Below are positions 36,731-38,490 of a DNA stretch of 41,089 nt, one piece after another. The position numbers and the translations under genes were made by a program. The notes under the pieces were generated by a model that was not told the DNA's origin, searched no databases, and saw nothing but the letters and a program-made list of their open reading frames with translations. The DNA is taken from positions 1 to 41,089 of the forward strand of contig VGOC01000022.1 in NCBI GenBank assembly GCA_016865865.1, in the 5' to 3' direction. Position 1 is the first letter of the stretch. Each line of letters starts with the position of its first letter. The stretch is from Chloroflexota bacterium (GTDB lineage: Bacteria > Chloroflexota > Anaerolineae > Anaerolineales > UBA11858).

Positions 36731-36763
36731 AGAACCCCGGTTTCTTGGAGAAACCGGGGTTCT
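36731..36763. terminator. Bidirectional hairpin between convergent genes
   Basis: AGAACCCCGGTTTC pairs perfectly with GAAACCGGGGTTCT around a 5-base loop. It begins two bases after the glycosyltransferase stop and ends at the first base of the sigma-factor stop. It lacks a U tract; the AACCCCGGTTTCTTGGAGAA form is also a common dispersed repeat. Confidence 0.7.
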
Positions 36764-37992
36764 CAATCCAAATACTCGTTCAGCCTCTCTTGAATGGCCG
36801 GACTGCGCAGACGGCTGAGAGCCTGCGCCTCGATCTGGCGGACGCGCTCGCGGGTCACGCCCATCTTGCGACCAACTTCTTCCAGGGTGTAGAGCTGTCC
36901 ATCCAGCAGCCCATAGCGCAGTTGCAGCACACGCACTTCGCGCGGGGGCAGGTTATCCAAAACCGTCGAGAGATGCTCTTTGAGCAGGTTTTGGATCGCT
37001 TTGTCATCGGGAGGAGGCGAATCCTCATCGGGGATGAAGTCCCCCAAAACCGAGTCCGCTTCATCATCTGTGGGCATCTCCAAAGATAAAGGCCGTCGCG
37101 CCACCCGCATCATATACTCCACCTTCTCCGGCGAAACCTGCAAATGAATGGCTAATTCCTCGATGGTGGGATCACGCCCCAGCTCCTGGGTCAAATGGTG
37201 GCGGACACGCAGCAGCTTGTTGATCTGGTCGCCCATGTGCACCGGCAGGCGGATGGTGCGCCCCTGGTCGGCGATGGCGCGCGTCACAGCCTGGCGAATC
37301 CACCAGGTGGCATAGGTGCTGAATTTATAGCCGCGGTGATAGTCGAATTTCTTGGCAGCCCGAATCAAGCCGATATTGCCTTCCTGAATCAAATCCAGGA
37401 AGGGCACCCCACGGCCCATATATTTCTTGGCGACGCTGATCACCAGACGGGAGTTGGCAGTAATCAGGTGCTCGCGCGCTGCCCAGCCATCACGGATGAA
37501 CTGTTGCAACACAAAGCGATCGTCCTTGCCGAGTTTTCCGGCAGCCAATTCCTGACTCGATGAGCGGCCGCGCTCGATGCGCTTGGCCAGATCAACTTCT
37601 TCTACCGCAGTCAGTAAAGGCACCCGGCCAACTTCTTTGATATACAGACCAATCGTATCGCTAGTATCAATATTGGCAAGGAAGTTATCATCCAATCGGA
37701 GTTCAGCTTCCCGGTCGAATTCTGTCTCTGCTTCCAGTTCCTTATCGGACGGTTCTTCGAAACCATCATCGTCAACATAAGGAATCCCGGCGCTGAGCAA
37801 CGCCGCAAAGGTCTCCTCGATCTGGCTGACATCTTGTTCGGCGCCTGGGTAGAAACTCAGGATTTCATCAATGGTGACATAACCATTCTCGCGCCCAATC
37901 TCCAACAGGCGCGCAATCGGTGAGACATCCCCCGCACCGCCAGGCAGGTCATCAAGGTCTTCGATAGAAGATAACAAGGATTCGTCTATCAT
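36763..37992 (-). CDS. rpoD: Primary-type sigma-70 factor (RpoD/SigA)
   Basis: 409 residues. A region 1.1-like N terminus (about 25-75: [36 protein letters not shown]), an acidic linker, region 1.2 ([31 protein letters not shown]), region 2 with the RpoD box [18 protein letters not shown] and [15 protein letters not shown], region 3, and region 4 with [29 protein letters not shown]. It directs polymerase to TTGACA/TATAAT-type promoters like those of csoR and flp here. Chloroflexota often carry several such genes, so this need not be the housekeeping copy. No strong ribosome site before ATG 37992. An IS66-like miniature element lies 39 bp upstream and may alter its promoter. Confidence 0.93.
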
Positions 37993-38031
37993 CGTAGTCT
38001 CACTTCACTTTCGACAAATCGAAAATGAACC

Positions 38032-38148
38032 GTAACTACTCAGCCAAACGGGGAAGTTCCCGAAAAAAGGGTGTGCGAACGCAAAGCGGCTGCGCCCCCT
38101 TCGCACACCCTTTTTTCGGGCTAATCCGTTCGATGGCTGAGCAGTTAC
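38032..38148. mobile_element. IS66-like miniature element (MITE), 117 bp
   Basis: The ends GTAACTACTCAGCCA and, inverted, GTAACTGCTCAGCCA differ at one base in 15. AATGAACC is repeated exactly on both sides (38024-38031 and 38149-38156), an 8-bp target duplication. Ends beginning GTAA with an 8-bp duplication are features of IS66-family elements. Inside is a perfect 21-bp stem (38059-38079 with 38100-38120) containing CCCGAAAAAAGGGTGTG, much like the stem of the 19570-19678 element. No coding capacity. Confidence 0.85.
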
Positions 38149-38200
38149 AATGAACCTGAGAAACCCATGTTACGTATCATCTCAAAAAGAAGGGGAAACA

Positions 38201-38250
38201 TCCCGAAGGTTACCTCGAAGAACACGTTCGAACCGCTCGAACCTTCGGGA
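38201..38250. repeat. Inverted repeat TCCCGAAGGTT...AACCTTCGGGA
   Basis: An 11-bp perfect inverted repeat enclosing CGAA-rich words (CTCGAAGAACACGTTCGAAC). Probably another dispersed palindromic repeat; no promoter or gene is associated. Confidence 0.6.
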
Positions 38251-38341
38251 CGGTGTGTTGCCATCCCCAGGTTATTGAGAAGATGCCATGTTTCTGTTCC
38301 TCGTTGCTTGGCGGTGTATTTTACCAACAAATGAGATTAAT

Positions 38342-38462
38342 GAGTCTACTGAAAAAACAACGAATAGAGAATAGGGGGCGGCATATATGGGGGTGCGTGC
38401 TGCGCACGCACCCCCATATATGCCGCCCCGCCCTCTCATGCGTGAGTTTTTTCAGTGAACAC
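38342..38462. mobile_element. Miniature inverted-repeat element with a 25-bp perfect palindrome
   Basis: The ends GAGTCTACTGAAAAAAC and, inverted, GTGTTCACTGAAAAAAC share ACTGAAAAAAC. ATTAAT flanks both sides (38336-38341 and 38463-38468). The core is a perfect stem of about 25 bp per arm around a 3-base loop (GGGCGGCATATATGGGGG... and its inverse, about 38376-38429). Related ends lie at 16-34 and 21190-21234. No coding capacity. Confidence 0.75.
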
Positions 38463-38490
38463 ATTAATGAGTCCACTAAAAAAAAGTAAC

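Follow-up and report, generated by a model that had tools for sequence, protein, structure and literature searches.

The element at positions 38032-38148 of the window (the whole 41,089-nucleotide stretch of DNA analysed here) is a non-autonomous, IS66-type MITE, which is an ordinary kind of mobile element and is soundly identified; very probably it was moved in trans, and with a second MITE beside it most likely lengthens the leader of the adjacent sigma factor gene. The features on which this reading is based are listed in Table 1. The terminal repeats GTAACTACTCAGCCA and GTAACTGCTCAGCCA, both beginning with GTAA, are identical at 14 of 15 positions, the flanking target duplication AATGAACC is identical at 8 of 8, and the hairpin arms CCCGAAAAAAGGGTGTGCGAA and TTCGCACACCCTTTTTTCGGG form 21 of 21 pairs around a 20-nt loop. 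The 117-bp element, its GTAA-starting ends, the perfect 8-bp duplication and the 21-bp hairpin put forward in the original prediction are hence all present, and the minus-strand sigma ORF starts 39 bp from the element, as had been stated. Folded as RNA of the sigma-coding strand, the element reaches -75.6 kcal/mol, against -35.8 kcal/mol (sd 3.6) for shuffled sequences (z = -11.1; equally stable shuffles, 0 of 200), and its hairpin is unusually strong and apparently flip-prone. No ORF of at least 80 aa lies within the 117 bp, a length too short for a transposase gene. Members of the IS66 family present inverted repeats of 20-30 bp starting with GTAAGCG and characteristic 8-bp repeats (PMC11946415, in its accessible part). 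The window MITE shares with them the 8-bp direct repeats and the GTAA-starting terminal repeats, but it lacks a transposase and its ends continue as GTAACT instead of GTAAGCG.

Table 1. Coordinates of the IS66-type MITE, the neighbouring sigma factor gene and associated features in the window.
Feature	Position	Strand	Remarks
RpoD-like sigma-70 factor	36763..37992	-	409 aa, regions 1.1-4
Left copy of 8-bp target duplication	38024..38031		AATGAACC
IS66-type MITE, long-loop form	38032..38148	+	117 bp; read directly, then recomputed
Left terminal inverted repeat (IRL)	38032..38046	+	GTAACTACTCAGCCA
Hairpin arm 1	38059..38079	+	CCCGAAAAAAGGGTGTGCGAA, with A6 tract
Loop, 20 nt	38080..38099	+	inverted, or swapped for a near-perfect short-loop palindrome, in other copies
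Hairpin arm 2	38100..38120	+	TTCGCACACCCTTTTTTCGGG, with T6 tract
Right terminal inverted repeat (IRR), inward reading	38134..38148	-	GTAACTGCTCAGCCA
Right copy of 8-bp target duplication	38149..38156		AATGAACC
Second low-copy IS66-type MITE	38174..38286	+	113 bp; ends GTATCATCTCAA/GCATCTTCTCAA
17-bp motif, candidate extended -10 promoter	38311..38327	-	TTGGTAAAATACACCGC; identical upstream of the G002 orthologue

Further copies, which the original prediction led us to look for, are abundant in the assembly from which the window derives (3,246,045 bases, 168 contigs, 94.3% complete). The end pattern GTAACTACTCAGCCA, with up to two mismatches, occurs 407 times (198 + 209), against a single match for the reversed control, and the core half-site CCGAAAAAAGGGTGTG, with up to one mismatch, occurs 424 times (211 + 213; control, 0). 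As each element has two ends and two half-sites, these counts correspond to some 200-210 copies, and the family accounts for about 0.7% of the genome (~204 copies of ~115 bp in 3.25 Mb). In a similarity search of the same genome, 40 of 265 first-look candidates were scored and all 40 match at 89-100%. The copies read comprise these 40 places and 100 listed places with an exact left end, in overlapping sets; because only exact left ends were listed, the sample is biased towards intact copies. Once repeated sites were dropped, 112 distinct paired-end copies were obtained, 108 of which are 111-117 bp long (63 of 112 bp, 29 of 117 bp, 12 of 114 bp and 4 of 111 bp), the rest measuring 96, 161, 162 and 185 bp. 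The pairs of 161 and 162 bp, probably fortuitous or compound, were left out of the context analysis. The 8-bp duplication is exact in 90 of the 112 copies, has one mismatch in 8 and two or more in 14. These copies comprise 84 distinct sequences. The window element is one of six that share the same sequence; the occurrence of identical copies at different exact duplications indicates recent movement.

Palindromes of the REP/REPIN type lack a target duplication and are mobilised by a RAYT. The window family is likewise short, palindromic, intergenic and present in high copy number, so that a palindrome spread by a RAYT-type protein had to be weighed against an IS66 MITE, but the exact 8-bp duplications in most paired copies and the IS66-like terminal repeats render it highly improbable. 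In the accessible part of the literature, REP/REPIN sequences resemble the window MITE in being intergenic palindromes with a proposed role in termination or mRNA stability (PMC3733652). They are, however, only 20-40 bp long (PMC3733652), whereas the terminal inverted repeats and 8-bp duplications of the window element mark it as a transposase-moved MITE.

The original prediction proposed searching the genome for a full IS66 element with the same ends. Full elements with near-matching ends exist in relatives, but a search with the Pfam IS66 transposase model identified no intact IS66 in the 94.3% complete, 168-contig assembly. The sole transposase remnant found there is a 214-aa fragment (contig C96, L032:201-943), and the end-like sequence near it, GTAACTACC, has just GTAACTAC in common with the MITE ends. 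A MITE is not defined by an intact partner in its own genome, although one would be evidence of present mobility. Matches to the transposase model were obtained in 10 of the 61 genomes searched, the own genome included. In a genome of the same genus (G003; Anaerolineales bacterium isolate BS750m-G45, a MAG, record JADHXE010000277.1), a 1549-bp element (L071) has ends GTAACTACTAAGCCA, matching the MITE end at 14 of 15 positions, and GTAACTACTAAGCCT (..CCT); its only ORF of at least 150 aa encodes a 456-aa IS66 transposase with PF03050 and zf-IS66 (NF033517, 307.7 bits; cut-off, 180). The 15-bp end GTAACTACTAAGCCA is identical in a MITE copy of that genome (L059), which carries an exact duplication. 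A 1505-bp element encoding a 498-aa IS66 transposase (L063; G042, from another family of the order) has ends GTAACTACTCAGCCC and GTAACTACTCAGCGG (..CAGCGG), at 14/15 and 13/15 to the MITE. No 8-bp duplication was found around either of these best-matching full elements, which counts against either as recently moved, and no relatives of the L071 transposase were found in the genome collection beyond its own record. Two further elements are a 1617-bp IS66 element in G025 (L066; NF033517, 301.6 bits), with GTAAC ends GTAACCGTTCAGT and an exact 8-bp duplication CTCAATTT, and a 1450-bp element in G042 (L082), with ends GTAACTGCTCACG and a 7/8 duplication. The identification of an IS66-like miniature element is thus upheld by the ~200 further copies and by IS66-family relatives with near-matching ends, and it seems reasonable to postulate that an IS66 transposase acting in trans mobilised the MITE, insertion duplicating an AT-rich 8-bp target.

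Matches to the element were found in 8 of the 61 genomes, namely the own genome, G001, G003, G004, G005 and G006 within the genus, and G025 and G033 in other families of the order, with no match in G002, also of the same genus. Counts of the GTAACTRCTCAGCCA end, with up to two mismatches, are 159 against 16 in the control for G003, 209 against 21 for G025, 148 against 22 for G041 and 89 against 5 for G019, and range from 20 against 7 (G033) to 43 against 10 (G005) in the other eight of the 12 genomes; the count in G002 (23 against 15) is near background. Among 20 stretches from G019 and G025, 19 have paired ends and 16 of these have exact duplications, the elements of G019 (130-135 bp) and G025 (122 bp) being similar in end style and unrelated in their cores. 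Elements of 105-114 bp in G025 present an A-rich tract, a GC-rich stem and a T-rich tract as in the window, but with a different stem sequence; the A-tract/T-tract flank is kept in same-genus copies and in those of G025, which belongs to another family, while the stem drifts. The G019 and G025 elements show that IS66-type ends have been used by several MITE families and that the A-tract/hairpin/T-tract plan is old. The MITE families with GTAACTRCTCAG ends and unrelated cores in G019 (L183-L192) and G025 (L193-L196) have exact 8-bp duplications in 13 of 14 cases. No exact match to a 20-base end pattern was found in the virus collection.

The 89 exact duplications counted have a GC content of 33%, as opposed to 55% in the fetched loci, and their commonest bases are A at position 2 and T at position 7. 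With genes called by a custom codon-usage script in place of a published gene finder, 110 copies (one of which, L017, repeats the site of L003) proved mostly intergenic (tandem gaps, 64; divergent, 30; convergent, 8), with 2 within a predicted gene and 6 at the edges of stretches. Predicted coding sequence makes up 82% of these stretches and contains 796 of their 1271 NAWWWWTN sites. The absence of the MITE from genes is hence best explained by selection, in a comparison that is affected by the stretches being centred on copies; the MITE would persist almost exclusively in intergenic DNA, insertions into genes being eliminated. Divergent gaps hold more copies than expected by bp (30 against 18.5, P 0.004), but after allowing for the NAWWWWTN target preference the excess is not significant (contingency P 0.27). 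It was therefore treated as target preference, and the idea of a functional placement on the 5' side of genes was dropped. In tandem gaps, copies lie near the stop (33) about as often as near the start (31). Of the start codons flanking a copy, 57 of 126 lie within 50 bp of it, so that the 39 bp separating the element from the sigma gene are nothing unusual in this family. With overlaps included, 48% of starts are this close to a copy, against 27% at control sites, but gap lengths were unmatched and no inference is therefore drawn from this difference.

The product of the sigma gene matches the NCBIfam RpoD models with scores below their cut-offs. Other RpoD-like genes in the own genome are a close paralogue on contig C46 and a 620-aa sigma frame on C35, the latter of which we take, judging by its length, to be the likely principal factor. 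Upstream of the G002 orthologue, which is 90% identical and has no MITE match, the motif TTGGTAAAATACACCGC lies 68 bp ahead of the ATG. The corresponding distance in the window is 318 bp, or 72 bp when both MITEs and one duplication each are subtracted, and the leader emptied in this way aligns to that of G002 with a score of 15 (maximum of 13 in 500 shuffles), against 3 for the filled leader. The agreement between 72 and 68 bp indicates that both MITEs most likely lengthen the leader of the sigma mRNA. TTGGTAAAATACACCGC resembles an extended -10 element (TGGTAAAAT); the scan did not identify it as a promoter, nor was it seen in the upstream regions of G004 and G006. The second MITE has GTATC/GCATC ends and a 7/8 duplication (CATGTTAC/CATGTTTC), and is present at four places in the genome at 90% identity or more, itself included. 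An IS66-family gene of G003 with GTATCTTCTCAA ends (L079) scores above the cut-off for PF03050 and below it for NF033517. At another locus (L172), the main MITE has a copy of the second one directly adjoining its right end.

Judging from the sequence, two IS66-type MITEs appear to have entered the interval between the conserved motif and the sigma gene, which makes the locus a documented case of such a pair. Both would have landed between the promoter region and the start codon, in which case the 5' leader would probably be longer by ~246 nt and would carry the 21-bp, A6/T6-flanked hairpin a short way upstream of the start codon. Most likely the sigma gene would thereby acquire a long structured leader, with expression lowered or partly terminated, rather than a new promoter. 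The original prediction had allowed for either a promoter effect or a structured leader. Of these, the leader fits best, because the 17-bp motif shared with G002, the closest relative, is on the far side of the element, while the supply of a promoter is unsupported by any sigma-70-like site. A blocking effect, which the original prediction also named, might arise through termination. That the element provides the sigma gene with an outward promoter or a -35 box is quite unlikely on several counts: its left end, read outwards, does have TTGGCT (4/6 to TTGACA) facing the gene, and transcripts starting inside another MITE, MITEAba12, are reported in the accessible part of its description (PMC6382973), but the scan identified no sigma-70-like site between 37900 and 38600, the flanks (49 left-facing, 45 right-facing) show no fixed-offset -10-like peak, and neither end preferentially faces a start (49 against 45, P 0.76). 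A MITE-supplied promoter was rejected on these grounds.

The hairpin may also be read as a two-way terminator or attenuator, the A6-hairpin-T6 core acting bidirectionally and the sigma gene being attenuated where the hairpin is opened neither by a factor nor by translation; we regard this as possible but rather doubtful. By a custom rule (a stem of at least 8 bp that ends at a T run), both strands qualify in 97 of 108 own-genome copies, and the persistence of the A-tract/T-tract flank in the genus and in G025, in spite of differing stem sequences, is congruent with such a role. On the other hand, the core was not recognised as a terminator by the consensus scan, and its T tract pairs with its own A tract. 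Nor do copies accumulate 3' of genes, with 30 of 102 classified intergenic copies in divergent and 8 of 102 in convergent gaps, and a strong terminator within 50 bp upstream of starts should be poorly tolerated, yet many starts lie that close to a copy. Rfam matches to the hairpin were all sub-threshold and mostly to microRNA families, and were taken as chance.

The cores of the own-genome copies comprise the form with the 20-nt loop and near-perfect palindromes with short loops. Stem variants change on both sides (GAAGGGGGC/GCCCCCTTC, GCAGGGGGC/GCCCCCTGC and GTGGGGGGGC/GCCCCCCCAC), and the centre occurs in both orientations relative to the arms (18 and 11 copies with the long loop, 45 and 27 with a short one and 7 unassigned, out of 108), also within each of the four commonest arm combinations. 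The compensatory stem changes cannot be attributed to RNA selection, since the flipped loops are a sign of palindrome correction in the DNA; as their source we favour correction or conversion at that level. One site is represented at two contig ends (L003:253-369 and L017:1501-1612), with the same duplication and left flanks agreeing at 245 of 252 bases, and has the long loop in one and the palindrome in the other. This suggests a change in place, but L017 lies only 18 bases from its contig end, so that misassembly may be responsible; the two sequences may also reflect different strains. With many copies, several core types, both orientations and a clear insertion signature, the family is a good natural data set on palindrome change, and is also suited to asking whether a MITE can spread terminators. 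More speculatively, and with rather little confidence, an Anaerolineales lineage of IS66-type MITEs might keep a mobile two-way terminator (A6-stem-T6) across genera and families, its centre repeatedly inverted or re-perfected, perhaps in place; the ~200 near-identical copies, many of them no more than 50 bp from a gene start, could then form a shared attenuation layer that here acts on a sigma factor.

No IS66-derived MITE was found in the accessible literature on IS66 and MITEs, outside subscription papers and ISfinder. As far as the accessible part of its description goes, MITEAba12 of Acinetobacter is similar to the window MITE in length (111-114 bp), AT-rich targets, target duplications, absence of orientation preference and presence in many copies, but differs in its 9-bp duplications, its parent (ISAba12), a maximum of 22 copies per genome, the outward transcripts observed, the lack of a predicted terminator and its weak structure, of -24 to -27 kcal/mol as opposed to -75.6 kcal/mol (PMC6382973). 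MITECca01 of Cardinium likewise underwent a genome-wide burst (169 copies, mostly intergenic), but intact copies of its IS982-family parent are described in the same genome (PMC9769881, in its accessible part), whereas the assembly studied here yielded no intact parent. Finally, a third palindromic repeat lies beyond the conserved motif, at 38341-38465 of the window, with ends like GAGTCYACTGAAAAAAC, a hairpin of ~54 bp and a duplication of perhaps 6-11 bp; in the own genome, 40 of 169 first-look candidates for this repeat were scored, and all 40 match at 83-100%.
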